Shown in pieces: positions 1,591 through 34,287 of a stretch of 64,000 bases of DNA. The notes beneath the pieces are model-generated. The model was not told the origin of the DNA. It saw nothing but the letters and a program-made list of their open reading frames with translations, and ran no database searches. Both the position numbers and the translations under genes were made by a program. Source of the stretch: Zanthoxylum bungeanum. Its lineage: Eukaryota; Streptophyta; Magnoliopsida; Sapindales; Rutaceae. Location: the NCBI GenBank assembly GCA_019454045.1, contig SKCR01037672.1, positions 1 through 64,000 of the forward strand, in the 5' to 3' direction. Positions within the stretch are counted from its first letter, which is position 1, and the number at the start of each line of letters is the position of its first letter.

Positions 1591-1708
1591 TTATCATGAC
1601 ACAAGCATAGGAATTGTAATACATCAACATATTTGCATTTATACATGTGGAGATAGCTACTAGGAAAACTATGCATGAAATCTAATGAAAGGACTCAGTT
1701 CAGTGTAT

Positions 1709-1945: not shown

Positions 1946-1969
1946 AGGATGCAATAACAGAAAATAAAG

Positions 1970-2440
1970 GGGCGCGGTGAAGCACTGCCGTAAAGGTGAC
2001 CTTTTGGGGCTCTTGATCTCTCAAAGAGAGGACCTTTAGACCAACATGCTAAGCCCATGCGCATCACGTCACACATACAAGACTAGAACCAATCACATCA
2101 ACCAAGTATGCCCGATTGAACACATCTCACATCCAATCTGAACACACGTCAACCGGCGCGGCAAAGCATTGTGGAAAAGGGGGCTTTTAGCCCCTCTCCA
2201 TAGGGGATCTCACATCACACTTACTAAGCCCATGCGCTCGATTGACTTATACATACGAAAATAAGATAATAATATCAAACTAAGTATGCTCGATTGAACG
2301 TATCTTGCGTCCAACCGAACATACATCAACCGGCGCGGCGAAGTAGTGTCACGAAGGTGGCCTTTTCGGCTCTTTGTCTCACAAATAGAGGACCTTTGGA
2401 CTAACTCACTAAGCCCATGCGCTTGGTTGAATCATACAAA
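1970..2440. repeat. About 180-bp tandem repeat in the LTR
   Basis: Three diverged units each run from 'ggcgcgg.gaag' through a 'ggcctttt' block and an 'aagcccatgcgc' block to an 'agtatgc.cgattgaac' block. The unit starts are about 180 bp apart (near 1970, 2154 and 2332). The same triplet is present at about 8812-9280 and, inverted, at 38520-39000. Confidence 0.8.
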
Positions 2441-4002
2441 GATAAACAATATATTGAATTCAAGAGAAAACTAAATAATAAAAAGCAACACAACGAAAGA
2501 GAGATGGTGCCGTTTACTCAAGCGGTACGTGGAGTTGTGGCCCGAGTACAGATCATATTACCGTCCATTCGGAATCGGCTATGAAATTTATGTCCGGGTT
2601 TCCATCCGATATAACCGCGAGAGTTGACACATCTCTCATTCATCCAATGCCCACAACATATTACATCTCATAATTCATGCATATTTATATACTCAAAAAT
2701 CACAACACACATTTTAACATTACAATCATACAAGAATACTTAATAAATAATGCGGAAAAGAAAAACAAGTGTGAAAGATACCCTCAGGTCTAACCTTTTA
2801 AGCCGTCTCTCGGACTCACGTTCCACGAAGATCGAAAGGGGGGTAAAGCTCCGCAACTTTTTTGGTCCCTGGTTCAACGTCCTAGCTCACTGCTTCGCTG
2901 CTTTGCTTATCGTTCGAACTCCGTTCTGCTCCTATTCGGCTCCTGTTTTGCTGCTCACTGCACGGGCTACCTGTTTCAATGTTTTCAAAGAACTATCCAA
3001 GTTGTGTGGGTTCTTAGTGCAATTAAAAGTGATTATTTTAAGGTTATCTATGTAGTTTTCTAAGTTACTGTTTTTTTAAGGATTTTGGGCTACTGTTTTA
3101 AGGTAATCTAGGAGGTTGTTTGGGCGTGTTTTAGAATTCGGCTATGGGTGAGTTTGGGTTCGGCTATGGAGGGTGGTCTTGTGGTGGTTTCTTTGTTTTC
3201 TTTTTGTTTGTGTATGAAGTGTTTTCTCTTGGATGTGTTTTGGGTGTGTAGAGAGAGTTTAGAGAAATTTCGAGAGAGCTTGGGTGTGAATTGTGTTGTG
3301 TGAAGGAGACGATGGCCTTGGTTAGGGGTTGTTTATATAGAAAATGGCTAGGGTTGACAAGGGAAGGGATCTTGTTTCCAAATTAGGAGAGGTGAGAAAG
3401 GCATACACAAGATTGAGGGGGGACAAGATATTTTAATTTAGGAAGTTGCAATATTTAATTTGTGTTGGTTTAGGAATATAAATATTTTATATTGGTAAAT
3501 ATCTTATTAGATTAGGAAGTCAAATATATGATTGGCTTTAATTGGTTAAGATTGATTTTAATTTGGTATGATTATATTTTGATTTAGTATGTGATTTGTT
3601 TAATTTAGGCATATCTTCTCTTTAGTTTTTGGTAATATTTTATTTAATTGGTAATGGTTTAAATGTTTTATTTTAATGTTTAATATTTAAATTAATATTT
3701 ATTTATTTAATTTGGGATGTGTTTTATGGGCTTTGGGGAGCTAAATGGGCTGGGCGTGAGGCTAGCAGCAAAACCAGAATTACCGACACCGTTCGAACGC
3801 TCCCTCGAACGCTACACGAACGCCCGTAATCTGTTTTCCGTTCGAACGAAGTAACGAACGCAGCACCAACGAAGACAGTGAGCTTGTTTGTTCTGAATTT
3901 CCCCTTTCCGATATCCGTTTCCCGCGCTTCCGTGACTCAAAAGGTAGTGCCTCCAAATGAGGCTCATCATCGGGTTTCACATGCGAAAATGCAATGCCTA
4001 CA

Positions 4003-4017: not shown

Positions 4018-4184
4018 ATGGGACTTGTGTAATGTGCAACAGTGACAATCCTATCAAAGTTTTTGCAATGCATTTTCACTTACCTGGCTCGCCAGCTGCC
4101 ACTTGACTTACCATGTGTTGAGTTGCGTTGATTTGGTGGTGAGGTGCTGCGACCCCTGGTTCATTCCCGAACCGTGCTCTATTT

Positions 4185-4596
4185 TTAGAACGCCATCTTC
4201 GGCATCTTTCGTGTATGTGCTCCATTTTGGAGCGCCATTTCCGGCATTTGTTGTGTGTGTTCCATTTTGGAACGCCATTTTCGGCATCTGCTGTGAGTGC
4301 TCCATTTTGGAGTGCCATTTCCGGCGTCTGTTGTGAGTGCTCCATTTTGGAGTGCATTTCCATTTCCGGCGTCTGTTGTAAGTGCTCCATTTTGGAGTGC
4401 CATTTCCGGCGTCTGTTGTAAGTGCTCCATTTTGGAGTGCCATTTCCGGCGTCTGTTGTAAGTGCTCCATTTTGGAGTGCCATTTCCGGCGTCTGTTGTA
4501 AGTGCTCCATTTTGGAGTGCCATTTCCGGCGTCTGTTGTAAGTGCTCCATTTTGGAGTGCCATTTCCGGCGTCTGTTGTAAGTGCTCCATTTCCTG
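4185..4596. repeat. 40-bp tandem array, about ten copies
   Basis: A 40-bp unit combining 'agtgctccattttggagtgc' and 'catttccggcgtctgttgta' is repeated about ten times. The copies from 4380 to 4590 are nearly exact and those from 4185 to 4380 have drifted. Because 40 is not a multiple of three and the unit has no minus-strand stop in any frame, all three minus-strand frames stay open (214, 160 and 121 codons). These frames are a by-product of the repeat and need not be genes. The array lies in the pol-less 3' part of the Ogre-like element. Confidence 0.93.
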
Positions 4597-4764
4597 AACT
4601 GTGCTGTACGAGATTGTGGCTCATTTTTGAACCGTTACTTGATGAGATGGTCTTTGCTGTTATAAACCTGTGAACACGAAACAAACATTGCATGTATGTG
4701 GTATGTATGCATGTATGCATGTATATGTATTATATTCCGATGGGTTAGGCCTTCCTTGGTCCAT

Positions 4765-5428: not shown

Positions 5429-6715
5429 TCATCCCATACTCCTATGGATGAAGCTGAGTGGTTGAGAGTTTGAAGGACAAGGGTTTCGGGTAGGCCGGAG
5501 TTGATCATGTAGTTGGGTAGGGATTTCTGTATGCGTTGGTTGTTCTCTTTCTGGGTCAGGTATTTTGTGAGCATCAATGAGGTTTTGGATTTCATGCCTA
5601 AGGCGGGTGCAGCTGTCAGTTTCGTGGCCTCTCCTTTGATGGAAGTGACAATACAAGCTTAGGTTAAGGTTGGGTGGGATAGGATCTGGAAGTGGTTTAG
5701 GCTCTAAGGGTTTTAGGAGTCCTTGTCCCTTCAACTTCTCAAGTACCTTAGATAACGGCTTCCCCAGGTTAGAGAAATGCCGGTTCTTGACGGTAGCGAC
5801 CTCGGCAGTAGCGGTTTGGTCTCAGAATACCCCCCAAAAGTCCGCCTATTCTGGCCATAGGACTTTCTGTTTTCAGCCTCCTCTTCCTCAATATCCATGA
5901 CAGTTTCCCTCAACTGTCGAAAATCGGAAATCATCGAAGTCATCCTCCTCAGCTTACTATAAATAGAGGGCTTGGTGCCCTTGATGATCATTTTGATTTG
6001 GTCCTTCTCAGAGGGCCGAGTCTGCATTTTCAGAAGCTGGCTTCTCCAGCGTCTCTACATACTCCTTGAAGCTTTCTTCCGGCTTCTGCTTAGTGTTCTC
6101 CAAATCACGGAGTGATAAGTCAATCTCCAAGTCTGTAACATACTGCTTCAGAAAAGCGTCAGCTAGTTCCTTCCAATCTTCCTTAACCTTCTTTTCAAGG
6201 CTATGATACCAAACCACAGGTGCCCCCTCGAGTGACATCCCAAACATCTTTTGGACTTGGCGCTGTGATAGGCCCACTGAACTCATAACAGACACATACT
6301 GACGGAGATGCACCCTCGGATCTCCATTCCCATTGAACTTAGCCAAATCCGGCATCTTAAACTGCGCTGGCAACTGCTCCTCGAACTTCATTGTCTCATA
6401 GTCTAGCAAATCTTCATTCTTACCCCTCATTTTACGGGTAACTGTTTCAACCTGATCCCGAAGCTTCTGTATCTCGGCCTGAGACCCAATCACTCTGTCT
6501 GTTGCATACTCTGCCATATCATCATCAAAAGCGGGGATATCATCCCCCAATCTGTTCGGAGATTCCTCTTGCCTCACATCCCCAGAATTAACCCCGGCAC
6601 GAGACCCAGCTATACCAGCCATAGCAGTAGTCAAAGCCTGCAACTGTTCAGTGATCTTGGCGAGACCATTCTCTAACTGATCCATACGGGACACCTCATT
6701 ATCGGATTCACTCAT
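5429..6715 (-). pseudogene. gag: Ogre/Tat-type gag, frameshifted
   Basis: The minus strand encodes a retrotransposon capsid protein. The start is the Met at 6715 (MSESDNEVSRMDQLENGL). An N-terminal coiled region is followed by a Retrotrans_gag-like core (LAKFNGNGDPRVHLRQYV near residue 125, then APVVWYHSLE) and the typical EESFKEYVETL. The frame breaks near 6010 and continues at 6027-5731 (MIIKGTKPSIYSKL..). It breaks again near 5730 and ends with the zinc-knuckle-like YCHFHQRRGHETDSCTRLRH (5734-5429), which is the Tat/Ogre CX2HX4HX4C type. No protease, RT, RNase H or integrase follows. The single-base breaks may be decay or assembly error. Confidence 0.88.
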
Positions 6716-7868
6716 ACTTGTTCTTTTAGTGAGTCTGGTTCCTTCTCTAACCCAAACGGTATCTATGGTGTCTTTTAAGACACAAGGATGTTAACAGGGT
6801 AATGTATGCATGATATGCATAAGAAAATATAACATTAAATCAAATAAAATTATCAAACAAATCGGCCTATCATCATTTTAGAAACTTTTGGGACAACTGT
6901 CATAAGGGTGAACCCGTCCCAGTTTAAATGGCACAACGAGTTCACGTCTTACGGCAAAGAGCCCAACTAAATCCAAATGATAATATTCCGAACAAGCACT
7001 CAAGGTGGCCCATCAATCACTTAGAAGCTTTTGGCCCAATAGTCATGAAATACGTTCTTGTCCCAGTTTAAATGGCCCAACAAGCCCATATCCCATGACA
7101 AATGGTCCAAATGGATCCAAACGGTGATGTTCCCAAACATAAGCATAGAAGGGAGATAATGCAAACATAACATAATAATTTTTTTATAATGGCCCATCAA
7201 CATTTCAGAAGCTTGGGCCTAATAGTCATACAGTACGAACTTGCCCCAGTTTAAATGGCCCAGCAAGCCCGCATTTCTGACAATAGTCCAACTGCATCCA
7301 AATGAGGATGGTCCACAAGCACATACTCAAGGAAATAATTGCTACTTTAACCATACAAACCAGTCTATGGGTGGATTTGCAAGAGTATGGACAAAGGCTC
7401 TCACTGGCGAAGGATAGCCCACAACTAGGTCTCCCCACTCAAGGGTTCAAGCGACCAAGTGAGTATCCCTTTTTATACACTAAGGTACGTGCCAATAAGC
7501 TATGGTGTGTGACGGACTGTCAAATGGATTTCCCGTTGTAGATCCCCAGAGGGAAGGTGGAGCGAGGCTCACTTAAATACCCAAGCCTCTTAGGCTCTTA
7601 TCGCTTGTTGTCAGGAATAAACAACGAGTCCTCCAAATTAGTCCATCACAAAGGCTACAAGTAGATGGCCATATAGGTGCCCTCACAGCTTTTCCTTCTA
7701 GAAAGGTAGTGAATGAAGGAAGACACCAAACCATTACCTAGCCTCAAAGTGCCCTTGATTAAACCCTCACTTATCCACTATAGACATGGCCAATTAAAAC
7801 ATAAATCCACTCATTACAAGACAATATTTCGGGGCCAATTCTCTACATCCCCAGTGGAGTCGCCAGAC
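6716..7868 (-). mobile_element. Ogre/Tat-type leader, inner copy, with primer binding site
   Basis: This is the untranslated region between the 5' LTR (7869-10848) and gag. It is near-identical to 1-1021 over positions 6840-7868. It carries the same three imperfect 'cccagtttaaatggccca' modules, and the primer binding site is intact here. A related 240-bp segment appears in the same 5'-3' sense relative to its own strand inside G2 (31021-31263). Confidence 0.85.
7848..7865 (-). promoter_or_regulatory. Primer binding site, tRNA-Arg type
   Basis: On the minus strand, TGGCGACTCCACTGGGGA lies three bases after the LTR end. From memory, it matches the 3' end of plant tRNA-Arg(ACG), including the CCA, with one mismatch. 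That is the primer class reported for Ogre elements. The outer tandem copy has a damaged version at 1002-1018. Confidence 0.8.
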
Positions 7869-10848
7869 TGGGGACACAGAAACTGAGCGACGCCGTTCCT
7901 AGGCTCGCGGCCTAGTTGGGAAGGATTACATAACATGGAGTCGCCACCCGGTGTGAACCGGGACAAAGATTTAAGGCCGCACTCACCCCTCGCAAGGGAA
8001 GACCTCAAACCGTTGGGTTCGGAATGGTCCCTTACTTATGTCACTTGTAATGAAAGGATTCATGTAATAATTTAACTAAGCTTAAGTAACACTTATTTCC
8101 AATAGTATCATGCTTCTAAATTCTCATGTGTGAAATAAAACTCATGTACGCATTTCACATATATCTTACATTTAAATTTGCATGCTAAACATATATCAAG
8201 ATAGCAACTAGCATACAACTTTACTTGCATATCACATTCAGAAAAAAAACACAGCGCACATATTAACCATACAAGCACACATGGTAAGCATACAAGCACA
8301 CATATGGGCACTTTTCAAGTGGTACGTGGAATTGTAGCCCAAGTACAGACCGCACTACCGTCCATTCGAATCGGCTACGGAATTTACGTCTGGGTTTCCA
8401 TCCGATATACCGCAAGAAATAATACTCAAATGTTATCATGACACAAGCATAGAATTGTAATACATCAACAATTTTGCATTTATACATGTGGAGATAGCTA
8501 CTAGGAAAACTATGCATGAAATCTAATGAAAAGGACTCAGTTCAGTGTATTCGCGTTCGTGTAGCGTTCGTAAACGCGTTCGAACGGAATGAAACAGAAT
8601 GCTCACGTTCGAGTAGCGTTCGTAAACGCGTTCGAACGGAAATGAAACAGAATGCTCACGTTCGAGTAGCGTTCGTAAACGCGTTCGAACGGAAATGAGA
8701 CCTGATGCATGATAAGGCAAAATTTATGCGCGTTCGAGTTGCGTTCGGGAACGCGTTCGAACGGACACGGACCTGATGCATGAAATAAGATGCAATAAAC
8801 AGAAAATAAAGGGGCGCGGCGAAGCACTGCCGTAAAGGTGACCTTTTGGGGCTCTTGATCTCTCAAAGAGAGGACCTTTAGACCAACATGCTAAGCCCAT
8901 GCGCATCACGTCACACATACAAGACTAGAACCAATCATATCAACCAAGTATGCCCGATTGAACACATCTCACATCCAATCTGAACACACGTCAACCGGCG
9001 CGGCAAAGCATTGTGGAAAAGGGGGCTTTTAGCCCCTCCCCATAGGGGATCTCACATCACACTTACTAAGCCCATGCGCTCGATTGACTTATACATACGA
9101 AAATAAAGATAATAATATCAAACTAAGTATGCTCGATTGAACGTATCTTGCGTCCAACCGAACATACATCAACCGGCGCGGCGAAGTAGTGTCACGAAGG
9201 TGGCCTTTTCGGCTCTTTGTCTCACAAATGGAGGACCTTTGGACTAACTCACTAAGCCCATGCGCTTGGTTGAATCATACAAAGATAAACAATATATTGA
9301 ATTCAAGAGAAAACTAAATAAACAAAAAGCAACACAACGAAAGAGAGATGGTGCCGTTTACTCAAGCGGTACGTGGAGTTGTGGCCCGAGTACAGATCAT
9401 ATTACCGTCCATTCGGAATCGGCTATGAAATTTATGTCCGGGTTTCCATCCGATATACCGCGAGAGTTGACACATCTCTCATTCATCCAATGCCCACAAC
9501 ATATTACATCTCATAATTCATGCATATTTATATACTCAAAAATCACAACACACATTTTAACATTACAATCATACAAGAAATACTTAATAAATAATGCGGA
9601 AAAGAAAAACAAGTGTGAAAGATACCCTCAGGTCTAACCTTTTAAGCCGTCTCTCGGACTCACGTTCCACGAAGATCGAAAGGGGGGTAAAGCTCCGCAA
9701 CTTTTCTGGTCCCTGGTTCAACGTCCTAGCTCACTGCTTCGCTGCTTTGCTTATCGTTCGAACTCCGTTCTGCTCCTATTCGGCTCCTGTTTTGCTGCTC
9801 ACTGCACGGGCTACCTGTTTCAATGTTTTCAAAGAACTATTCCAAGTTGTGTGGGTTCTTAGTGCAATTAAAAGTGATTATTTTTAAGGTTATCTATGTA
9901 GTTTTCTAAGTTACTGTTTTTTTAAGGATTTTGGGCTACTGTTTTAAGGTAATCTAGGAGGTTGTTTTGGCGTGTTTTAGAATTCGGCTATGGGTGAGTT
10001 TGGGTTCGGCTATGGAGGTGGTCTTGTGGTGGTTTCTTTGTTTTCTTTTTGTGTGTGTATGAAGTGTTTTCTCTTGGATGTGTTTTGGGTGTGTAGAGAG
10101 AGTTTAGAGAAATTTCGAGAGAGCTTGGGTGTGAATTGTGTTGTGTGAAGGAGACGATGGCCTTGGTTAGGGGTTGTTTATATAGAAAATGGCTAGGGTT
10201 GACAAGGGAAGGGATCTTGTTTCCAAATTAGGAGAGGTGAGAAAGGCATACACAAGATTGAGGGGGGACAAGATATTTTAATTTAGGAAGTTGCAATATT
10301 TAATTTGTGTGGTTTAGGAATACAAATATTTTATATTGGTAAATATCTTATTAGATTAGGAAGTCAAATATGATTGGCTTTAATTGGTTAAGATTGATTT
10401 TAATTTGGTATGATTATATTTTGATTTAGTATGTGATTTGTTTAATTTAGGCATGATCTTCTCTTTAGTTTTGGTAAATATTTTATTTAATTGGTAAATG
10501 GTTTAAATGTTTTTATTTTAATGTTTAATATTTAAATTAATATTTATTTATTTAATTTGGGATGTGTTTTATGGGCTTTGGGGAGCTAAATGGGCTGGGC
10601 GTGAGGCTAGCAGCAAAACCAGAATTACCGACACCGTTCGAACGCTCCCTCGAACGCTACACGAACGCCCGTAATCTGTTTTCCGTTCGAACGAAGTAAC
10701 GAACGCAGCACCAACGAAGACAGTGAGCTTGTTTGTTCTGAATTTCCCCTTTCCGATATCCGTTTCCCGCGGCTTCCGTGACTCAAAAGGTAGTGCCTCC
10801 AAATGAGGCTCATCATCGGGTTTCACATGCGAAAATGCAATGCCTACA
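7869..10848 (-). mobile_element. Ogre/Tat-type LTR 2 (5' LTR)
   Basis: The LTR is 2980 bp and near-identical to LTR 1. The differences are mostly single-base insertions and deletions plus a few substitutions. It contains the same internal repeat modules and a minus-strand TATA-like box (ctatataaac, about 10177-10186). The right edge, TGCCTACA at 10848, adjoins the gag-protease region of G1, which suggests that the Ogre-like array inserted into G1. The matching target duplication would lie left of the window. Confidence 0.93.
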
Positions 10849-10859
10849 CCAAGAAACAT

Positions 10860-12180
10860 GGGGAATGAGCAATGTCATGCCATCATGTTAAAAAGCGGTA
10901 CTGAAATCAACAAAGATGTTGAAGCCAAAACAACTGTTGAGGAAGTTCCAAAAGAAACAAAGCAACAGATAGAGGAAAAGAAACAATGGAAAAAGAACAG
11001 ATCACTCCACCTCCACCTTTTCCTCAACGTCTTCAGAAGAACAAATTGGACAAGAAGTTTTCTCGGTTCCTGGAGATCTTCAAAAAGTTGCATATCAACA
11101 TTCCATTTGCAGAAGCGTTGGAACAAATGCCCACCTATGCCAAATTCATGAAAGATATTCTTTCACGAAAACAGAGATTGGGAGATTACGAGACAGTAGC
11201 ATTAACAGAAGAATGCAGTGCCATCATTCAGAGGAACTTCCCCGAAGTTGAAAGATCCTGGCAGTTTCACTGTTCATTGCGTCATAGGAGAACATAACTT
11301 TGGTAAGGCTTTGTGTGATTTAGGTGCGAGTGTTAACTTGATGCGTTTCTCTATTTTCAAGAAATTACAGATTGGAGAAACAATGCCAACTTCAGTCTCT
11401 CTACAACTTGCTGATAGAACGCTCGTATTTCCAAGAGGCGTAGTTGAGGATGTGCTGGTCAAGGTTGACAAATTCATTTTCCCAGCAGATTTTATTGTCC
11501 TTGATATGGAGAAAGACGCAGACGTGCCAATCATCCTCGGGAGACCATTCTTGGCTACAGGTCGAACCATTAATGATGTACAAAAAGGAGAACTAACCAT
11601 GAGGGTACATGACCAAGAAGTAACATTTAATGTTTGCAAGGCCATGAATTTCCCAGATGATGAAAAGAATGAGGAATGTTTCAAACTCGATGTGATATAC
11701 AATACCATTCAGAACTCCAATGCAATGCAAAGTTCTACTGACAAACTTAAAACATGTCAATTGCCTGTGGAGCCTAAAGATAAAGCGTCATTTGTACTGA
11801 AAGAGCCAATTCTTGTACTACAAGCAACAGAAGAGAAAAAGTTCCACCAGCTCAACGAATTGGAGGAATTTCACAATCAGCCTTTTGATGATGCCAAATT
11901 GTACAAAGAAAAGGGCAAGAAAAGACATGATGAGAAGTTAGTGCGCATACAACTGGAACCAGGGCAGAAGGTACTGTTAAACAAATCAAGGGTGAAATTC
12001 TTCCCATGGAAGCCAAAATCACGGTGGTCAGGTCCATTTGTAATCACCAAAGTTTTACCAAATAGAGCCGTTGAGATACATGATCCTGACGCTAACAAAA
12101 CTTTCAAGGTTAAAAACAAGCGTGTCAAGCACTACTGGGAAGAATCATTTGAGCGACAAAAAGAAAGTGTTACACTTTGA
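10860..12180 (+). pseudogene. G1 gag end, protease and integrase C-terminus fused
   Basis: The coding starts in one frame (..INKDVEAKTTVEEVPKE), shifts near 11000 to PPPPFPQRLQKNKLDKKFSR and shifts again near 11235. From 11236 to 12180 it is one open frame. It begins with a retropepsin (ALCDLGASVNLM, active site DLG instead of the usual D[ST]G, then IILGRPFLATG). With no stop it then passes to LNELEEFHNQPFDDAKLYKE and KSRWSGPFVITKVLPN, which are the end of the integrase core and its GPY/F C-terminal domain. RT, both RNase H regions and the integrase catalytic core are missing, so an in-frame internal deletion joined the two ends. Other Athila-like members here also lack RT. Confidence 0.88.
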
Positions 12181-12308
12181 GATCCAGCTTAACGTTCGAG
12201 AAGCCAAGTCTGGCTGACGACTTTAAACTTAGCGCTCGCAGGGAGGCAACCCATGCAATTTGTGTATATATTGTGATCTGGTGTGTTTTATTTTTTTTGT
12301 GTTTAGTT

Positions 12309-12830
12309 TTTGCAGGTAAAGTCATTTCACGATCGAAGAAGCTCTCGCAAATCTTCACAAGCAATTTCCTTCTCTCCCTAAAAAATCTCTGATGAAAGTT
12401 TACAAAGCTCGTTTGGAACGGATGAGACTAATGATGATTAAAGGTATTCCTACTGACATTCGTTGGATTATTGAAGCACGGGTTCGATTGGCAGGTGAGT
12501 CTTCTGACTCTTTTATTTCACATCTATTTGGTTTAGGAAGAAACACCTATGTTAAAAATAGAAGAGCTAAAAGAATGGGTGTTTGCTATGACATGTAATA
12601 CTCGTTGTCGTTCTTTAGGAATGATGTCAGATATCCGCGAAGACAAAATTAAATTCATTAGGGATGAATTGAGTAAGGAGTCTTTAGATGATATATCTTC
12701 GACTATTGAGACGCATCCTAGTGGATATGTACACATAGCCATTCGCAAATTACATACACAATTTCAAAAAGAAAGACAACAGTTAAGTCTTGGGAATCTG
12801 ACTCAAAAAACCATGTTTGCCAATTTATAA
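12309..12830 (+). pseudogene. G1 second ORF after integrase, function unknown
   Basis: A 'tttttgcag' acceptor-like site (12308-12316) precedes two overlapping frames. One spans 12392-12598 (MKVYKARLERMRLMMIKGIP..). The other spans 12549-12830 (IEELKEWVFAMTCNTRCRSL.. to ..THPSGYVHIAIRKLHTQF). They would join through a single frameshift near 12535. The position matches the extra or env-like ORF of Athila elements. I do not recognise the protein; it has no obvious signal peptide or membrane segment. A piece around 'ttgagacgcatccta' (12704-12770) has a counterpart at 29874-29932 in G2, so the region belongs to the element family and is not a unique capture. Confidence 0.5.
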
Positions 12831-12835
12831 GAAAA

Positions 12836-14433
12836 TTGGATGGGAAATTAATAATGGATTTGGTGGAGTAATTAGTGGAGAAATTAATAATGGATTTGGT
12901 GGAGAATTTGATGGATGATTTGATAGAGGCAAAATTTTGCCTATAAATATCAAGCCATTTCATTTGTAAAATCCATATTTTCTTCTTTGAAATTCCTAAT
13001 GAATAAATAAGAAGATTGTATCTTGTTTGTTTATTTACAACTTTCAGTAATTAATTTCCGCTTTCGCAATTTCTTTTCTTACTTTTCAGTTTTTACTTTT
13101 CGCAATTTACTTTTACGCACAAACCTTTTCTTTCTTTATTTTTGCAGTTTTTATTTTTCAAGCAATGAGGAGGTAAATCCCCCTTGCTGGGGTAAAAGGT
13201 AAAGCTTTTATTATTGCTATCTAGATTAATCTCCCTTAAATATAAAATATAAACTATTTAAAACCTGACTTAATGAGAATACCGCTATATTGGCCGGTTG
13301 GAAATTAATTATAAATTGGTTTTAACCTGACTAAGTATGGATACCGCCTGGTTGGTAATTAATTATTAATTTGACTTAATCAGGATACCGCCTATATGGC
13401 TGGTTGGTAATTATCACGCCAAAGTTAATATATTATATTAAGGGAGATATCTAAAATAGTAGTAATAAAAGTTGATCCTCTAACCCCAGCATTTTCTTTT
13501 ATTGTACTTTTACTTTATTTAATTTCAGTAATTTACTTTTCAGCAATTTACTTTCAGTAATTTACTTTTTTTTTTTTTTTTACTTTTTACTTTTTACTTT
13601 TTACTTTTTTTTACTTTTCAGCAATTTACTTTTCAGTATTTAATTTTCAGAATTTACTTTATGTCTTTTATTTTATTTAAATTTTTACTACTCGTAAATA
13701 TGTGTCGTAACTAAGCCAGTTATCTGGGGTTGTGATGAAATCCAATATCACTGGTTTATAATGGGTTAAATTATAGTTTGGGTAATATAAAGGTTTATTT
13801 ATTGAGTTTTAATCTTAATGCTTTTTATTAACTGGCCATTAATAAAATTGAACTGGTAAACTTAAAATGAACTAGACATAGAGATTTTAAGTTTAAGACC
13901 TTAGACTCAATAGCCCACGATCTTCCTTGAGGATAGATAACCCTTTAATAGATTTCCTTACAGGATAGGAATATACCTGTCGGGCGGGGGTAGCCATAAT
14001 TGGAACTTAATCTTAATGAATCCAGATAATTTGGTTGACATAGACATATGGTTCAATTGGGTTATACTGGATATTTGTAGTTGACCATCGGAATAGGCTT
14101 TTACATAATTTAGTGTTCCAGGTTAATAAATCAATATTTTATCCAACTATAAGATAACCACTTCATCTTTAAAATGATATTGGAAGAAATCACAACCCTA
14201 GATAGTTTTTAATATTGAATTTTCTTAAAACCTATTTTCGACAATTTTATTTACTTGCTTTTAAATTTAGAATCGTCACCAGTTCAAATCAATCAATCAA
14301 CCTGTTAGATACTAGTAATCATTTGACCTCTTATAATTAATAGTTTAGATATTAAGTCCTCGTGGGATCGATATTTTTATACTACTTGAATGATACGTGC
14401 GCTTGCGTTATACGTGTGTGTTTACTCCGGTCA
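12836..14433 (+). mobile_element. G1 3' LTR, left end truncated or unclear
   Basis: A TATA box (gcctataaatatc, about 12939-12951) is followed by an R/U5-like region holding four 'ggataccgcc..ggttgg' modules (13270-13420). The conserved end is 'cctcgtgggatcgatatttt..cggtca' at 14433. These features align with both G2 LTRs (26445-28292, 32436-34282). The U3 start and the polypurine tract seen in G2 are not present, so the left boundary is approximate and a deletion is likely. Confidence 0.8.
13560..13640. repeat. Poly-T and (tactttt)n low-complexity tract
   Basis: A run of about 17 T is followed by repeated 'tactttt' units inside the G1 LTR. It is likely polymerase slippage. Confidence 0.8.
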
Positions 14434-15254
14434 ACCGTTCTAATAAGTCTCTATATGTCAACTGACCTAATTGAGAGAGGTAAATTGAGCTTTGATAGTA
14501 TCATCTGTCTCGTATGTCGACCCGAGGAACGAAAATAGGTTCACAGGTCGACCTGTATCAGAGTCATGTGACGTATGTCGTAGGTGAGAAGATAAGCTTC
14601 TAGAAGACTAATAACGACTATGGAAAAACAACGATTCTCATTGGAAGTAGCTCATGTCAGCTGCCATAGACCGGTGAAGTGGTAGGGAGGTGGCAGAGTA
14701 GAGCCGCCATAGGCCGATGTAATAACAATGAAATGGTTTGATCTGATTTGCCAATTTAAGGATAGTTGATGAGAGTTGTGACGAAATTAATGGCAATGAG
14801 ACATGGGATGACGTCAAATGCGGTGAAATAGTGAATTTGGGAGCCTATATAAATGTGTTGAAGTCTCAGATTGAAGGGTTAGTATTTTTATATCTCACAA
14901 CTTATAAAAAGCTAAAAACTAAAGAACTAGTGATAGAGAGAGAAAGCTAGCCAATCACCCATTGAGAGAATTGTACCGGCTTATGTAAGAACCGATGTGT
15001 TTTGTTATTTTGAGTTCATTTTTCCATTGTAGCTCGGGTCGGTCTTGACCCCGAGCAGTAATAAAATACCCTATATTTCTCCCATGGACATAGGTAGGAG
15101 TCACTATCTGCCGAACCACGTAAACTCTGTGATTTATCTGTCTACTTGCTAAGTTTTCTTTGGATCCCAACTAACCAAATAAATTCACTATTGATGGAGG
15201 TTTATTTGAGGGATGAATTTCATATTTTGCCTTTTGAACGAAAAACAATCGTCA
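14434..15254 (+). mobile_element. G4 5' LTR (left limit uncertain)
   Basis: A TATA box (gcctatataaatg, 14849-14861) and a polyadenylation-like 'aataaaatacc' (15059-15069) are followed by 'gaaccacgtaaactctgtga'. The end at 15254 (..cgtca) lies just before a primer-binding-like sequence. The matching 3' LTR is 48935-49219. The 3' LTR's start (TGTTGATGGTGG) is not seen on the left, so the left LTR is truncated or diverged. Confidence 0.65.
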
Positions 15255-26439: not shown

Positions 26440-26444
26440 GTATT

Positions 26445-28292
26445 TGATGAGTGATAAATGTATCACTATTTCTCACTCATTTAACTTGATATTTTGTATA
26501 GTTTCTTGACTTTTGTGATATTTTAATGTGTTTTGTGTTATTTTGCAGCTAAATAAAGATTCAGGACATTTTGGAGGTGATTTGGAGCAAAACTGTGAAA
26601 TTTGGTGATGAAATTGGCAAAAAGGGTATTTGTGGTTTTTGGCATCCCGACCCGGTATTTTGGTAATTTTGGACATCCCGACACCGAAATAAAGTTTCAA
26701 GATATTCTGGAGGTGATTTGGAGCAAAATTGTGAAATTTGGCGAAAAGGGTATTTTGGTAATTTTGGGCATCCCGACACCGAGGGTATTTTAGTAATTTA
26801 ACCACCATGCCACGTGTCAAAGATTCAACGAGCCGTCATTTTTAGCACACCATGCCACGTGTCGAAAATTCAGCGATTCAAAAAAAAATAATAATAAAAA
26901 AATAAAAATCAGAAAAAAATAATAAAAAATCAAAAATCAAAAAATAATAATAAAAATTAGATTTTTTTGCCTATAAATAGATTTCGAATTTTTAGTTTCA
27001 AATGTACCAAATCCTCTGTAAATCCTTATAAATAAATTGAGAGTTCTTCATATTTCTTCTTTTATTCAGTTTTATTTCGCTTTGTAGTAGTAATTCTAAC
27101 CATCCATGAGGGGGGTAACGTCTCTATGCTGAGGTAATAAGGTAATTCTTTTACTTTTGCTATTTAGATTAATCTCCCTTAAAATATGATATATAAACTA
27201 TTTAAAATCTGAATTAATAAAAAGATACCGCCATTCTAGGTCGGTTGGTTATTCAATTTAAACTGGTTAAACCTGACTTAATGAGGATACCGCCATTCTA
27301 GGTCGGTTGGTGGTTTAAATTTTATTCTGTTCCGCCTTATGGCTGGTATATTTGAATTTGACTTAATCAGGATACCGCCATTCTGGACGGTTGGTTTAAA
27401 ATATCACAAGTTAATATATTATTATTTATGGGAGATATCTAAATAGTATATAGTAGAAGTTATTTCATTTTACCTTAGCATTTCATTTATTTATTTTAAT
27501 TACTTTCTGCAATTTCATTTTCTGTCTTTTAAGTTTATATCAGTTTTAATTATGTATAGTAACTAAATAAATATCTAGGGTTGTGATAAAATCTAATATA
27601 ACCGGTTTTAAAAGGGTTAGATTATAGTTTGGGTAATTAAAGAGTTATTTGTTGAGTCATAATCTTAATGCTTTATTAATTGGCCATTAATAAAATTGAT
27701 TAGGTAAACTTAAAATGAACTAGACATAGGGATTTTAAGTTTAAGACCTTAGTCTAACAACCCACGATCTTCCTTAAGGATAGATAAACCTTTAATAGAT
27801 TTCCTTACAGGATAAACATATATATACCGTGGGCGGGGGTAGTCATAATTGGAACTTAACCTTAATGAATCTAGGTAATTTAATTGACATAGACATATGG
27901 TTCAATTGGATTATACTAGGTATTTGTAAATGATCATTCGAAAGAGGCTTTTACATAATTTAGTGTTCCAGATTAATAATTCAATAATTTATCCAACTAT
28001 GATTTAACTACTTTCTTTTAATTGATATTAGAAAGATTAACAACCCTAGATCTTTGAGTCTTTTTATTTTCCTTAGTATTTTCTTTTGTCTTTTTATATT
28101 TATTTATTTAGTAACTCTACAAATCAAATCATTTCAAGCAATCAATTCACTTCTCCTTAATTAGATATTTGTAAATAAATAGTATCAACAATTAATAACA
28201 ACAGTAGGAATTAAGTCCTCGTGGGATCGATATTTTTATACTACTTGAACGATACGTGCGCTTGCGTTATACGTGTGTGTTTACGCCGGTCA
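26445..28292 (+). mobile_element. G2 5' LTR
   Basis: The LTR is 1848 bp. It has a TATA box (gcctataaatag, about 26971-26982), three to four 'gataccgcc..ggttgg' modules (27220-27395) and a terminal 'cctcgtgggatcgatattt' block. An internal tandem of about 95 bp (ggtgatttggagcaaaa.tg and ttttgg..atcccgaca) lies in U3 at 26570-26790. Confidence 0.96.
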
Positions 28293-28298
28293 AGTTTT

Positions 28299-28316
28299 TG
28301 GCGCCGTTGCCGGGGA
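28299..28316 (+). promoter_or_regulatory. G2 primer binding site, tRNA-Asp type
   Basis: TGGCGCCGTTGCCGGGGA, six bases after the LTR, is a full 18-base complement of the plant tRNA-Asp(GTC) 3' end including CCA, as I recall that sequence. This is the primer class of Athila-like elements. Confidence 0.88.
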
Positions 28317-28429
28317 CTTATTTTTCTTGAGTTATTAATTTTGAAGCTATCTAATTTACTTGTATCTAATTTTCTTTACTTTTATCTGTAATTTTTATTT
28401 CTTCCTTTTGTTTTCAGGTGATTGAAAAA

Positions 28430-28939
28430 ATGGAACATTTTGAAAAATTACAAGCTTTACTAGAAGAAGATACACCCAAAATCCAGGAGCAACAGTCTAG
28501 TTTTCTGAGGCCTGTTGTCCAACACAACAATTATCACTGGAATTCAGAATCAAGCAATTCTACATTTGCTCATCAGAATGAAATGGGGAGATGTGTAATA
28601 TGTGATGGTAACCACCCGAGCGATCAATGTATTTACTTTCAGAGTGGCAGAATTTTTGGAATCAACTAAGGTACGAAGAATCATCATTTTCCATCTTATC
28701 CACCATCTTCCTCGATTCTTATCATGAGAACCAGATCCATCAGAGGAAGATCAATTAATCACATGTTCAAAGAACAAGCAGTTCGATTTGATGCACAAAT
28801 TCAGAGTAACGCAGGATCCATACAGAGAATGACAGATCAGATCAGACAATTAATAGAAAACCAGAGCTACATACCTCAAGAACCATTTCAGAGACAAGAT
28901 GAAGCCTCAGAGTACCAAACATTCACGATGACACTTTAG
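28430..28939 (+). pseudogene. gag: G2 shortened gag with a zinc knuckle
   Basis: The Met at 28430 begins MEHFEKLQALLEEDTPKIQE and reaches CVICDGNHPSDQC (CX2CX4HX4C, about residues 60-72) before a stop at 28669. A second frame (28724-28939) continues with FKEQAVRFDAQIQSNAGSIQ and MTDQIRQLIENQSY, the segment that normally follows the knuckle in Athila-like gag. The capsid core is missing. A polypyrimidine tract ending ttttgttttcag stands just upstream of the Met and could be a splice acceptor. Confidence 0.75.
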
Positions 28940-29280
28940 CAAAAGAGGAGGCTGAGGAGAATCAAGAACCAGAGGTATCAGTTCAGGAACCCGAACCGAC
29001 AAAGTCTCGATTTGATTTCTATTTTTCAGATTCTGACGAGGATGAAACTGAGCTGTTTGTGCCAACTGCATCAAAAATTGAGGATGAAATTTGTATTCTC
29101 AAAATGAAGATCTTGGAGATTCCATTGCACAAATTTTTGATGAAGATCTACCTGAGCCAATCATTTCAACCAGATCAGAGGATGAAGACCTAAAAACTAA
29201 CATTTCCTCAGGTTGTGAAAATTTTGAAACATGTATTTCACAGATGACAGATGAAGAGCTGAATGCAGAAATTTTCTAAA
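28940..29280 (+). pseudogene. Acidic linker region of G2
   Basis: The sequence is rich in Glu and Asp (EPEPTKSRFDFYFSDSDEDE and then DLGDSIAQIFDEDLPEPIIS, EELNAEIF) in two alternating frames. It resembles the low-complexity acidic part between gag and protease. No catalytic motif is visible. Confidence 0.45.
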
Positions 29281-29287
29281 CTCATCT

Positions 29288-29641
29288 GTGAAGAAAGGTG
29301 AGCAAGAAACAGAGCAAATTGAGGAGCAAATGTCTGACTTTATTAAAGATCCAGAGCATTCAGGAAAAACATCGCTGTTTTGGGGAGTACAATATACAGA
29401 TATCAACCAGAAGCTTGACAGAATGGAACTTCCATTCCAAGTCAAGCACCATACAAGACCTCCTGATTTTCTTTCTTTCTTTTCAGGAACCACTGGAGCA
29501 ACAAAGATTAAAAAGGTGGCACAAGCACTGAATGAGACAAAACTCTTTTTGCCACTTTACCGTTGGAAGAGACCCTTCAAAAGCAACGCTCTCGGGATTG
29601 TCTTTGATCGGACATCCAAAACGACGCTGAAACCTCCTTAA
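29288..29641 (+). CDS. G2 117-codon ORF, uncharacterised
   Basis: The frame opens with an acidic segment (EQETEQIEEQMSDFIKDPEH) and continues with DINQKLDRMELPFQVKHHTR and LFLPLYRWKRPFKSNALGIV. It stops just before the conserved post-integrase block. I do not recognise a domain. It occupies the place of pol and may be a chimera of linker and a short C-terminal pol remnant. The initiating codon is uncertain. Confidence 0.4.
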   Translation: MKKGEQETEQIEEQMSDFIKDPEHSGKTSLFWGVQYTDINQKLDRMELPFQVKHHTRPPDFLSFFSGTTGATKIKKVAQALNETKLFLPLYRWKRPFKSNALGIVFDRTSKTTLKPP

Positions 29642-29655
29642 CAGATAGATTTTAG

Positions 29656-29705
29656 TCACGTCTGGCTGAAGACGAAAAATTTAGCGCTAGCAGGGAGGCA
29701 ACCCA
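29656..29705 (+). other. Conserved post-integrase block of G2
   Basis: The sequence 'cacgtctggctgaagacg' is followed by 'ttagcgctagcagggaggca' and 'acccatgcaatttg'. It matches the equivalent blocks in G1 and G3. An acceptor-like 'gttattttgtag' follows at 29762-29773, as in G1, where it precedes the second ORF. Confidence 0.78.
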
Positions 29706-29773
29706 TGCAATTTGTTGTAATTTATTTTCATATTTTGTGTGAACTTTTTAAATTTTGTGTGTTATTTTGTAGG

Positions 29774-30155
29774 GAAAAGCACAAATGGAGCATTTTAAGA
29801 CAGAAGGAATGGTGTTTGACAATCACAAAAAGGAGAGCTAATTCATTTGTGATGGCTGAGTAAAGAATGATTTCTTGAGACGCATCCTAATGAATTTATA
29901 CTAAGCAAGTGGCGTATTGCGTACACAATTCTGTTGCCTTAATTATTGCTTTGATTTGCTTTTCTATTGAAATTATCTTTATTTTCATAGACAGGATCCA
30001 GACTTTTTGACCTTTCACTATTCTTTTGTGTTTTAGCTAACAAGCTTCCTTTGGAAGATACTAGTGCTATTATTACTCACCTTTTCAGGTACTATAAATT
30101 CAGCCGTCATTGCACTTTTGAAGGCATCCATAGTTGAGAAAGAAATACATAAAAA
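29774..30155 (+). pseudogene. Remnant of the second ORF, leading into LOG
   Basis: The piece 'ttgagacgcatcctaatgaa' to 'cgtacacaattc' (29874-29932) lines up with the G1 second ORF at 12704-12770. The rest has no open frame. It shows that LOG lies downstream of the native extra ORF rather than replacing pol. No poly-A or target duplication marks the LOG edges. Confidence 0.5.
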
Positions 30156-30782
30156 ATGGAAGCCACTTCAAGAAGACGAGTTGAGAACATCTGTGTATTT
30201 TGCGGTAGTACTATTGGTACTAAACCACAATACATAGAAGCAGCACAGGAATTGGGTCGAGTCTTAGCAGCAAGGAATATGCACTTAATATATGGCGGAG
30301 GCAATCTTGGACTAATGGGGATCGTTTCAAAAGCCGTACAAGAAGGAGGCAGTCATGTTTTGGGAATCATCCAAAAACCTTGGCAGAGGCGAATCTTATT
30401 GGATCATCAAACGGAGAGGAACTGATCGTGCCAGGTATGTCTGAACGACTGGTTGAAATGATTAACCGTTCTGATGCTTTTATTGCTTTGCCAGGTGGCT
30501 TGGGCACATTGGAGGAAATTTTTATAGTACTATCTTGGGCGAACCTGAACATACACCAGAAACCGCTTGGATTGCTTAACGTTGATGGATTTTATGATTT
30601 TCTTTGTGTTTTCTTGATGATGCTCGGAGAAATGGGTTCGTGTCAAAACCTATGAAAGAACTCCTCTTACTGCCAGACTGCACCGATCTAATGACCAACT
30701 CGTAGCCTTTGAACCACAAGTTGACCCTATCATTTCAAAGATAAATGGTCCGATGATGATCGTGGTAAGAAGAGTCGAATAA
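30156..30782 (+). pseudogene. LOG-type cytokinin riboside 5'-monophosphate phosphoribohydrolase, captured and intronless
   Basis: LOG enzymes release active cytokinin bases from their riboside monophosphates in the cytosol. The frame starts at ATG 30156 (MEATSRRRVENICVFCGSTI). It contains YGGGNLGLMGIVSKAV (about residues 48-63), SDAFIALPGGLGTLEEIF with the family's PGGxGTxxE motif (about 108-125), ANLNIHQKPLGLLNVDGFYD, and a C-terminus DQLVAFEPQVDPIISKIN. The stop is at 30780-30782. With three breaks bridged this gives about 209 residues, the usual family length. The breaks, near 30371, 30616 and 30668, each look like loss of one base in a short C, G or T run, so they may be assembly errors. 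The usual MHxRKxxM motif reads MSERLVEM: Arg kept, Lys changed. It resembles a divergent LOG-like branch. Plant LOG genes have several introns; none is seen here, so this is a processed copy. Confidence 0.93.
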
Positions 30783-31020
30783 TCTGGATCTTAACCTTTA
30801 ATTTCCTGTAGAATTTCAGCCAACCAGGTACGATTTTCTAAACTCTTCTTCTACTTTTTAAGACATTGGGGACAATGTCTCATTTAGGTTTGGGGGTGAG
30901 GAATAGTTAATAGTACTTGTTTGTATTATGTTTTTAGTTTTAGTCCAAAATTTTTCGCGAAAAAAATACAAAAAAATTAAAAAATTAATAAAAACAAAGG
31001 GCATATTTAAAGCTAGGTAA
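30783..31020 (+). other. G2 sequence after LOG with an internal polypurine-like tract
   Basis: The sequence 'acattggggacaatgtctca' followed by 'tttaggtttgggggtg' (30863-30898) is an internal copy of the motif that also occurs in G3 ('acattgaggacaatgc..aagtttgggggtg', 44391-44421), more than 1 kb before each real 3' LTR. The remainder is AT-rich and noncoding. Confidence 0.6.
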
Positions 31021-31263
31021 TGGTTTGGTGTCTTCCTTCACTCACTACCTTTTTATAAGGAAAAGCTGTGGAGGCACCTAGATAATCATTCACTTGTAGC
31101 GTGTTGTGACAGACTAGTTTGGTAGGACTCGTTGTTTATTCCTGACAACAAGCGATAAGAGCCTAGGGGCTAGGGTACTTAAGTGAGCCTCGCTCCACCT
31201 TCCCTCTGGGGAATCTACAACGGGAAGTCCATTCGACAGTTAGTCACACACCATAAACTGAGC
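31021..31263 (-). repeat. Segment shared with the Ogre-like leader
   Basis: The region from 'ggtttggtgtcttccttca' through 'ctcgttgtttattcctgaca' to 'gggaagtccattcgacagt' is the reverse complement of 635-890 and 7490-7740, with about 85-90% similarity by eye. Two unrelated gypsy families thus share 240 bp of noncoding sequence. Confidence 0.85.
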
Positions 31264-31633
31264 CTTTTGAAAAAAAAAAAAAAAAATTGTAAATTATAAT
31301 ATATGACCAGTAAAAATGTTTTGTTGTTATGTTGACTAAAAAGATGAAATTGGTAAGAAATAGCTGTGTAAGGAATTTCCACTCCTGAGACGTATTTCAA
31401 ACCTAATTCAAAACAAGTTAATTTTGTTTATTCACTTTTGAATTATTTAATCTGTAAATTCTCCATTAAACTGACTAAAATGGATCTTCATATACTTAGT
31501 TGGCAGATATTATCAACATACATGATAACATACAGACATAAGCTAAAATTGAAAAGTTGTAAATCCAGTACTCTAGTTCATTTGGAGGAAACATCTAAGA
31601 AAATAGTGATGGAATAAAAAAAAAAAAAAATAC

Positions 31634-31870
31634 ATCTGAGATCCGAGTTATTAAGTCTGTAAGGGTATTTTAAAACCTAGTGCCCTAAAACCAACTGGTT
31701 TGGGAGTCATTGGCCCAAAACTCGTTACATGGATCAAAAAATGATGAAAATTTTATATATATGTATATATATCTGAAGTCTGAGTAATTAAGTCCTTAGG
31801 GGTGTCTTAACACCTGATGCCCTAAAGCCAACTGGTTTGGGAGTCACCGACCTAAATCGCTACATAGATG
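31634..31870 (+). repeat. Direct duplication of about 125 bp
   Basis: Two copies of 'atctgag.tc.gagt.attaagtc' to 'ccaactggtttgggagtca' lie head to tail (about 31632-31730 and 31770-31870). The similarity is about 80% by eye. They are noncoding and lie in the G2 3' untranslated region. Confidence 0.7.
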
Positions 31871-32261
31871 GAAGATTGTATATAAATAAAAAATAGAAAA
31901 ATGAAAAATCAAAGAAAAAATCAGAAAAATCAGAAAAATTATTCCATTACTACAAAAGATGTGAAATCTGATAAAACTTTAGGACAAAAATATTACTCTC
32001 TTATCAACTGCACTTATGACCGTTGTGGGCAAAAATGAGTTGTTTAATATTTTGTTGGCTGTGTATATGAAGAATGGTAAAATAATCGGAGAATTTACTT
32101 ATTTAGTAATTTAGAATGAAACAAAACAACTACTAAACTTGGAGTAGAAGTTTCATCTAATGAGTCACTGACTTCTTTATTCTCTTTTCTCTTGTCTTTT
32201 TGCTTTTGTATGCATTAGTTTCACTTCCTTTTTACTTTTATAAAATGTTTGTGGGTATCAT

Positions 32262-32370
32262 TGCTGTAAACCTTCACGAGACTATAACTCGTCCACTAGG
32301 GACACCTAGGGTTTAAAGGCTTGTTGCATATGCTAAATGCAATCGTGATCCCTACGAAAGTGGCTTAGTT
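32262..32370 (+). other. Conserved noncoding block upstream of the polypurine tract
   Basis: The sequence 'cacgagactataactcgtcc' leads through 'actaggg.cacct' and 'gggtttaaaggcttgttgca' to 'gaaagtggcttagtta'. It is nearly identical in G3 (45457-45555), although the surrounding sequences of the two elements differ. The position is about 70-170 bases before the 3' LTR in both. Confidence 0.75.
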
Positions 32371-32435
32371 AAATTTTATTATGTTATTTTATTTTGTATT
32401 GCTCGAGGACTAGCAAAATGTTAGGTTTGGGGGTG

Positions 32436-34282
32436 TGATGAGTGATAAATGTATCACTATTTCCCACTCATTTAACTTGATATTTTGTATAGTTTCTTGA
32501 GTTTTGTGAATATTTTAATGTGTTTTGTGTTATTTTGCAGCTAAATAAAGATTCAGGACATTTTGGAGGTGATTTGGAGCAAAACTGTGAAATTTGGTGA
32601 AAATTGGCAAAAAGGGTATTTTGGTAATTTTGGGCATCCCGACACGGTATTTTGGTAATTTTGGACATCCCGACACCGAAATAAAGTTTCAAGATATTCT
32701 GGAGGTGATTTGGAGCAAAATTGTGAAATTTGGCGAAAAGGGTATTTTGGTAATTTTGGGCATCCCGACACCGAGGGTATTTTAGTAATTTAACCACCAT
32801 GCCACGTGTCAAGATTCAACGAGCCGTCATTTTTAGCACACCATGCCACGTGTCGAAAATTCAGCGATCCAAAAAAAAAATAATAATAAAAAAAAAAAAT
32901 CAGAAAATAATAAAAAATCAAAATCAAAAAATAATAATAAAAATTAGATTTTTTGCCTATAATAGATTTCGAATTTTTAGTTTCAAATGTACCAAATCCT
33001 CTGTAAATCCTTATAAATAATTGAGAGTTCTTCATATTTTCTTCTTTTATTCAGTTTTATTTCGCTTTGTAGTAGTAATTCTACCATCCATGAGGGGGTA
33101 ACGTCTCTATGCTGAGGTAATAAGGTAATTCTTTTACTTTTGCTATTTAGATTAATCTCCCTTAAAATATGATATATAAACTATTTAAAATCTGAATTAA
33201 TAAAAAGATACCGCCATTCTAGGTCGGTTGGTTATTCAATTTAAACTGGTTAAACCTGACTTAATGAGGATACCGCCATTCTGGTCGGTTGGTTTAAATT
33301 TATATTTCTGTTCCGCCTTATGGCTGGTATATTTGAATTTGACTTAATCAGGATACCGCCATTCTGGACGGTTGGTTTAAAATATCACAAGTTAATATAT
33401 ATTATTTTATGGGAGATATCTAAATAGTATATAGTAGAAGTTATTTCCTTTTACCTTAGCATTTCATTTATTTATTTTAATTACTTTCTTCTGCAATTTC
33501 ATTTTCTGTCTTTTAAGTTTATATCAGTTTTAATTATGTATAGTAACTAAATTAAATATCTAGGGTTGTGATAAAATCTAATATAACCGGTTTTAAAAGG
33601 GTTAGATTATAGTTTGGGTAATTAAAGAGTTATTTGTTGAGTCATAATCTTAATGCTTTTTATTAATTGGCCATTAATAAAATTGATTAGGTAAACTTAA
33701 AATGAACTAGACATAGGGATTTTAAGTTTAAGACCTTAGTCTCAACAACCCACGATCTTCCTTAAGGATAGATAACCCTTTAATAGATTTCCTTACAAGA
33801 TAAACATATACCTGTCAGGCGGGGGTAGTCATAATTGGAACTTAACCTTAATGAATCTAGGTAATTTAATTGACATAGACATATGGTTCAATTGGATTAT
33901 ACTAGGTATTTGTAAATGATCATTCGAAAGAGGCTTTTACATAATTTAGTGTTCCAGATTAATAATTCAATAATTATCCCACTATGATTTAACTACTTCA
34001 TCTTTTAATTGATATTAGAAAGATTAACAACCCTAGATCTTTGAGTCTTTTTATTTTCCTTAGTATTTTCTTTTGTCTTTTTATTTATTTATTTATTTAG
34101 TAACTCTACAAATCAAATCATTTCAAGCAATCAATTCACTTCTCCTTTAATTAGATATTTGTAAATAAATAGTATCATCAATTAATAACAACAATAGGAA
34201 TTAAGTCCTCGTGGGATCGATATTTTTATACTACTTGAACGATACGTGCGCTTGCGTTATACGTGTGTGTTTACGCCGGTCA
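32436..34282 (+). mobile_element. G2 3' LTR
   Basis: The LTR is 1847 bp and matches the 5' LTR with scattered substitutions and small indels. One change alters the TATA box to gcctataatag. It is preceded by the polypurine tract 'ttaggtttgggggtg' (32421-32435). Confidence 0.96.
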
Positions 34283-34287
34283 GTATT

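Follow-up and report, generated by a model that had tools for sequence, protein, structure and literature searches.

Two Athila-like elements similar to LOGL4 were reportedly described by Steinbauerova et al. in 2011, with extra ORFs in the 3′ part. According to PMC9289625, which cites Steinbauerova et al. 2011, a YgdH/LOG domain is present in the LTR-element consensuses of two Citrus species and, when no filter is applied, in those of Populus trichocarpa. LOG-type domains in LTR elements are thus of a kind already known from Populus and Citrus. The same paper describes Ty3/gypsy elements of orchids that carry an AlkB-type m6A RNA demethylase domain, and excerpts of PMC7264820 present Bs1 of maize as an LTR element with transduced sequences of different host genes. 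A literature search, mostly outside subscription journals and including excerpts of PMC7264820, PMC6317226, PMC11728184 and PMC13317346, returned no report of selection on a LOG ORF, of copy numbers such as those given below, or of a non-autonomous carrier. It also returned no paper naming LOGL4 together with Athila.

The locus described here lies in a window of 64,000 nucleotides of Zanthoxylum bungeanum DNA (contig SKCR01037672.1), the whole stretch that was analysed. One LTR element of the window, G2, contains LOG homology in sense orientation between its LTRs.

Results

G2 is a two-LTR element with a frame-shifted LOG copy

G2 is a 7.84-kb LTR element at 26445-34282 with GTATT perfectly duplicated on both flanks. 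The left copy of the duplication (26440..26444) matches the right copy (34283..34287) and is flush with the TG..CA ends of the element. Self-alignment places the 5′ LTR at 26445..28292 and the 3′ LTR at 32436..34282, both on the plus strand. The LTR pair has 38 mismatches in 1828 aligned bases, 22 gap runs and a K of 0.021 by MAFFT, and the description of G2 in an earlier note, as bounded by near-identical LTRs and a perfect GTATT duplication, was borne out. BLASTN gives 15 mismatches and 32 gap openings for the pair. The pair is rich in indels relative to substitutions, and the assembly may therefore contain indel errors. A primer-binding-site-like sequence, TGGCGCCGTTGCCGGGGA, is read immediately 3′ of the 5′ LTR at 28299..28316 (plus strand), and we take it to match the 3′ end of a tRNA (Asp). 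The polypurine tract named in the earlier note is present at 32423..32435 (plus strand), immediately 5′ of the 3′ LTR. The gag remnant it had also named found no support: the three ORF pieces at 28430-29635 are below every Pfam cut-off.

The LOG gene occupies 30156..30801 on the plus strand, a gene body defined by the open 217-codon LOG of a relative (L010) that is 98% alike. Pieces of the window copy searched separately match PF18306 (2.6e-10, 40.5 bits) and PF03641 (2.4e-24, 86.4 bits), and their top PDB match is Arabidopsis At2g37210 (2a33). The homology shifts from frame 0 to frame 2, then to frame 1 and back to frame 0, and frame 1 of 30156-30782 contains six stop codons, including the one at 30780-30782. 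Since the gene body of the open relative reaches 30801, the stop at 30782 results from a frameshift. A full-length LOG reading frame of normal length had been assigned to 30156-30782; the six in-frame stops and the spread of homology over three frames rule out an intact LOG in the window copy, which, as assembled, is frame-shifted and cannot encode a full LOG. Part of the frameshifts could be assembly indel errors. The absence of introns was confirmed, and the open sister copies contain LOG as one continuous 217-codon frame.

Two further repeats were seen elsewhere in the window. Positions 1-4002 and 6840-10848 form a 4-kb direct repeat of 98% identity around about 2.8 kb, and inside this pair lies a minus-strand ORF (6008-6715) that is gag-like by eye; the two repeats are probably the very long LTRs of a two-LTR element. 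The minus strand of 4076-4720 contains a repetitive ORF in which a QQTPEMALQNGAL-like unit recurs.

LOG is a fixed component of a large element lineage

One LOG 26-mer has 5,202 exact matches in the source assembly (3.96 Gb, 51,709 contigs) and a codon-degenerate VYGGGxxGxMG motif has 10,682, each against a reversed-pattern control of 0; both are assembly counts in which duplicate haplotypes or other LOG genes may be included. The window copy has Ile in the motif and hence lies outside the degenerate set. Both places fetched from that set (n = 2) contain zinc-finger-ORF sequence followed by LOG. Copies were sampled in two ways. The LOG-similar copies (L009-L028, each 8.9 kb) are the 20 best of 39 other LOG matches, chosen by LOG similarity. 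The list-order copies (L029-L048 and L050-L069) are the first 40 of the 5,202 26-mer places in contig order and have only the exact 26-mer in common.

Two LTRs with LOG at the same place were found in 20/20 LOG-similar copies (one LTR of L013 was matched in part), which answers the proposal to look for other G2 copies in the genome with LOG at one fixed place. LOG is a fixed component of the LOG-bearing element lineage in this genome. Perfect 5-bp duplications flush with TG..CA are present in 16 of 21 elements (the window element and these 20), and all 16 differ. The LTR K of the 21 elements ranges from 0.001 to 0.039 with a median of 0.0087, which would correspond to about 0.3 million years at a rice substitution rate of 1.3e-8 per site and year. 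An open 217-codon LOG occurs in 10 of the 20 LOG-similar copies, mostly young ones with near-identical proteins. Among the list-order copies LOG is open in 5/40 and not open in 35/40. A search of IMG/VR contigs, from which records close to the window's genome may be missing, returned no match.

LOG lies 3′ of gag-pol sequence in a related element

The 40 list-order copies fall into two classes, 22 with zinc-finger-ORF sequence just 5′ of LOG and 18 with G2-type sequence there; the count of 22 refers to sequence match rather than to openness of the ORF, and the class of L050-L069 was assigned from about 185-310 bases of upstream match. An open zinc-finger ORF was seen in L048 (57-602), with 182 aa from its ATG and profile matches above cut-off to Viral_NABP (4.8e-7) and Carla_C4 (8e-7). 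A leader module of 178 bases directly before LOG (29978..30155, plus strand) is common to both kinds of LOG-bearing element: aligned to the 14 zinc-finger-class copies among L029-L048, it is 79-84% alike. G2 sequence 5′ of this leader gives no alignment to those 14 copies.

The gag-pol context of LOG was read in one element, which lies on a single contig (L049 and then L048) and contains an LTR, gag, RT, RNase H, integrase, the open zinc-finger ORF and an open LOG. The domains of L049 are in Ty3/gypsy order (Retrotrans_gag 1.1e-21, RVT_1 1.2e-29, RT_RNaseH 2.8e-35, rve 1.1e-17), which gives the LOG-bearing lineage its Ty3/gypsy affiliation, and the protease is under the Pfam cut-off (RVP_2 0.027). 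The open stretches of L049 are spread across several frames and the stretch read stops before the 3′ LTR, so intactness is not implied. The L049 LTR is 78-79% alike to the G2 LTR. An Athila-like label would fit by analogy, from the primer-binding-site-like sequence and the 3′ extra ORFs, partly with reference to excerpts of PMC6317226. BLASTN found no gag-pol of L049 that matches the G2 interior, except for about 100 bases near 29654-29763. Because the L049 gag-pol is without a match in G2 and the leader is common to both classes, G2 looks like an apparently non-autonomous derivative without gag-pol that retained LOG.

The zinc-finger ORF, of viral type (carlavirus/nucleic-acid-binding), adjoins a hormone gene in these elements. 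Its relatives among the 120 matches listed include 58-67% matches in Populus, Xanthoceras, Acer, Orobanche and Rhamnella. A LOG (P0071) and a zinc-finger ORF (P0261) both lie on JGI contigs of 4511 bases; were these one and the same contig, as is possible, LOG and the zinc-finger ORF would be documented side by side in a second plant. Zinc-finger ORF sequence also occurs in the window at 12255-12847, within another deletion derivative at 10849-14434 that lacks about 2.6 kb of pol compared with L049. Window positions 10849-11714 and 11811-12315 match L049 5714-6583 and 9297-9801; after them come zinc-finger ORF sequence and then an LTR-like stretch, which resembles the G2 LTR at 81-82%. No LOG match was found between the zinc-finger ORF sequence and the LTR-like stretch of this derivative.

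The LOG reading frame has a record of past selection

Variants of the LOG reading frame were compared among the 40 list-order copies, with stop changes excluded from the nonsynonymous (N) and synonymous (S) counts and with the private class excluding variants that are single in a class yet present elsewhere in the set. Variants present in at least three copies number 65 N and 82 S (pN/pS 0.24) and fall on codon positions 44/21/88, compared with 185 N and 61 S (pN/pS 0.93) and codon positions 100/80/83 for private variants. The N/S difference between the two groups is significant (Fisher 9.3e-10), and a uniform spread over codon positions is rejected for the variants in at least three copies (p 1.4e-10) but is compatible with the private variants (p 0.27). 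The dN/dS-type comparison that the earlier note had suggested was thus run as pN/pS. Both classes behave alike: pN/pS for variants in at least three copies versus private variants is 0.22 versus 1.06 in the zinc-finger class and 0.20 versus 0.86 in the G2 type. In L029-L048 the variants in at least two copies give a pN/pS of 0.30 in the true frame and 0.58 and 1.90 in the shifted frames. Sequencing errors could raise the private class but cannot account for the pattern of the variants in at least three copies. This spectrum establishes, at the level of coding variation, purifying selection on the predicted LOG protein across the history of the family and about neutral decay in single copies.

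Stop-making variants number 17 among the private variants and six among those in at least three copies (two of them in at least five), so some of the latter reflect recurrent mutation or the multiplication of copies already broken. Variants confined to G2-type copies comprise 15 N and 12 S in at least two copies and 1 N and 4 S in at least three; those confined to the zinc-finger class comprise 21 N and 6 S, and 5 N and 1 S, respectively. The evidence for selection appears to concern the family history alone: class-confined variants are few and mixed, and those of the zinc-finger class point to none.

Selection on LOG is partly borne out by divergence along the element. LOG-similar copies diverge by 0.3-1.1% in LOG and by 1.8-8.6% in most other stretches, with one flank stretch at 0.7%. 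The contrast in these copies is partly a sampling effect. Among list-order copies, the 14 zinc-finger-class copies diverge by 6-9% in LOG, 6-14% in the 5′ flank and 17-25% in the 3′ flank, and six G2-type copies by 6-8% in LOG and 7-12% in the flanks.

The element LOG protein has the LOG motifs and a distinct tail

The open LOG of L010 scores 121.7 against PF03641 (cut-off 27) and 165.3 against TIGR00730 (cut-off 96.35). Against the NCBIfam equivalog CtkRMPhLog (cut-off 300) the element LOG reaches 116.9 bits, and the Arabidopsis LOG3-type protein P0121 itself reaches just 132.4. The element LOG is 46% identical to P0121. Identity to Arabidopsis LOG3 is 73-99%, in most cases 85-94%, for the 120 best LOG3 relatives listed, which come from flowering plants and one conifer. 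The nearest LOGs among the matches listed from a database of 5.8 billion proteins are 88% identical and lie on ENA contigs; identity to the element LOG is about 51-56% for proteins of Xanthoceras and of Populus, some of the latter bearing the name LOGL10 (217 aa). Three predicted proteins of Xanthoceras sorbifolium (P0009, P0017 and P0018, 336-381 aa) contain, as judged by eye, a tandem pair of LOG-like stretches.

A tree of 49 proteins was built with 30 of the 120 listed element-LOG relatives and 12 of the 120 listed LOG3 relatives, all hand-picked. Five element LOGs of this genome and the 30 relatives are split from 13 ordinary LOGs and the outgroup with support 87/87 (not starred); of these 35 element-side rows, only the five of this genome were seen inside element sequence. 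A C-terminal LxLxL end, mostly after a basic stretch, is found in 25 of the 35 element-side rows and in none of the 12 ordinary LOGs whose own C-terminus was included, the Arabidopsis LOG8 row being shortened. It is absent from the other 10 rows (P0002, P0008, P0010, P0012, P0016, P0031, P0033, P0042, P0057 and P0097). The LxLxL tail is presumably an EAR motif.

PGGxGTxxE is invariant in 6/6 aligned rows, including the open copy of this genome, and in 18/18 rows of a wider set. The Arg of RKxxM is invariant in the six rows and is not a conserved column among the 18 (P0008 has Gln by eye), and in the element LOG Leu replaces the Lys that stands beside this Arg in ordinary LOGs. The predicted model of an 88% homologue (P0001) matches 2a33 with an rmsd of 1.5, and residues 202-217 of the model have a pLDDT below 50, as for a disordered tail. 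The element LOG product is likely a cytokinin riboside 5′-monophosphate phosphoribohydrolase. P0008 and P0010 (both 67%) have longer N-termini that contain, by eye, the translation of the leader sequence that precedes LOG here, which suggests that their leader-LOG junction shares common descent with the one in this genome.

A splice-acceptor-like sequence precedes LOG

A 3′-splice-site-like sequence, TTACTCACCTTTTCAG, lies at 30073..30088 on the plus strand, about 70 bases before the LOG start, where it may be used in splicing. The TTACTCACC-TTTTCAG stretch in this position resembles a plant branch point and 3′ splice site. Of 60 other copies, 57 have the core motif [CT]TTT[CT]AG in the 180 bases upstream of LOG, and 56 are without an ATG in the last 100 bases before the LOG start. 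Spliced, LTR-driven RNA has been proposed for the env-like genes of Athila.

Discussion

In the explanation that we prefer, LOG is an accessory gene of an old Ty3/gypsy (Athila-like) lineage and G2 is one of its young two-LTR members, apparently non-autonomous; we regard this explanation as a whole as modestly probable. The earlier note had read the intronless LOG as capture of a spliced host transcript by a retrotransposon. An intronless LOG gene does lie inside an LTR element, an RNA-level origin is the likeliest first step by which LOG entered retrotransposons, and in this the note stands; a recent capture into G2 is not supported, with LOG present in 20/20 relatives. The capture looks old because LOG is at the same place in all of these copies, has thousands of matches, lies 3′ of gag-pol in another element and is 46% identical to the LOG3-type P0121; G2 looks to have inherited it. 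Recent acquisition of LOG by G2 itself, through the template switching from host RNA that the note had favoured, would suit an intronless gene in sense orientation between LTRs, and we consider it very improbable. It is contradicted by the fixed place and the thousands of assembly matches, by LOG beside gag-pol sequence in another element, by the 46% identity, and by a tree in which the element LOGs join those of Populus and Xanthoceras, without the 13 ordinary LOGs (87/87, not starred).

On this explanation, an ancient LOG cDNA would have been captured once by the lineage, and LTR-driven RNA would be spliced to the conserved acceptor about 70 bases before the ATG, allowing LOG to be translated. 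The enzyme would release active cytokinin in the expressing cell, and local cytokinin might promote cell division or meristem identity and so improve the germ-line chance of the element. A selective advantage to the element through local cytokinin would be the least certain step of the explanation. In its strong form, the retrotransposon lineage would keep a cytokinin-activating enzyme as a selfish gene that enlarges the dividing or meristematic pool where new copies enter the germ line, a proposal that we offer tentatively and think unlikely. Retention of LOG by a derivative without gag-pol would be expected if the benefit falls to the element in whose cell LOG acts.

LOG may now be a passenger, once useful in the lineage and carried without effect and decaying in present expansions. 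We rate this as possible and rather doubtful: 35 of 40 list-order copies are not open, class-confined variants are weakly or not constrained, some shared variants are stops and the window copy is frame-shifted, yet among the 20 LOG-similar copies, most of them young, 10 are open and their proteins are near-identical, variants in at least three copies have a pN/pS of 0.20-0.24 overall and per class, and an open LOG stands 3′ of gag-pol sequence in L049/L048. Less plausibly, the protein has been re-purposed, its fold kept and its basic LxLxL tail, as a nuclear signal and EAR-like co-repressor motif, giving it a nuclear role, for example in element or host transcription, instead of that of a cytokinin enzyme. 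The LxLxL end in 25/35 element-side rows against 0/12 ordinary LOGs would agree with such a role, as would the low predicted confidence of residues 202-217 of P0001 (pLDDT < 50), as expected of a linear motif. Ten of the 35 element-side rows are nevertheless without LxLxL and PGGxGTxxE is invariant, which would be needless in a pure scaffold, and we judge re-purposing improbable.

The extra ORFs of plant retrotransposons are mostly without a known role, and in the present elements the extra ORF can be recognised as a hormone enzyme. With thousands of copies and a clear record of past selection, it allows the idea that transposons manipulate host development to be tested concretely. Populus genes annotated automatically under names such as 'LOGL10' may belong to retrotransposons.

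Among ordinary LOGs, Arabidopsis LOG3 (At2g37210, PDB 2a33) resembles the element LOG in the fold of P0001 (rmsd 1.5) and in PGGxGTxxE and YGGGxxGLMG, and it differs in sequence (46% identity for P0121), in the C-terminal tail of the element protein and in the Lys of RKxxM, which is Leu in the element. Bs1 combines sequences of several host genes, according to excerpts of PMC7264820, whereas the lineage described here has one complete gene as a stable component of a large lineage. The orchid AlkB elements are like the present ones in having a host-like enzyme domain in many consensuses of one gypsy family (PMC9289625); they differ in that their domain acts in RNA demethylation and is called 'functional' in the title, whereas LOG acts on a hormone precursor, an activity that is predicted here. 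Also close are the gypsy elements of Citrus and Populus with a YgdH/LOGL4 domain, which share with G2 a LOG-type domain in a plant gypsy element and, by the reported 2011 description, extra ORFs in the 3′ part; Populus LOG proteins, known as proteins, fall on the element side of the tree like the LOGs of this genome (87/87, not starred). Unlike in those reports, as far as the literature searched goes, LOG here is also present in an apparently non-autonomous carrier, has thousands of matches and has had the selection on its ORF measured.
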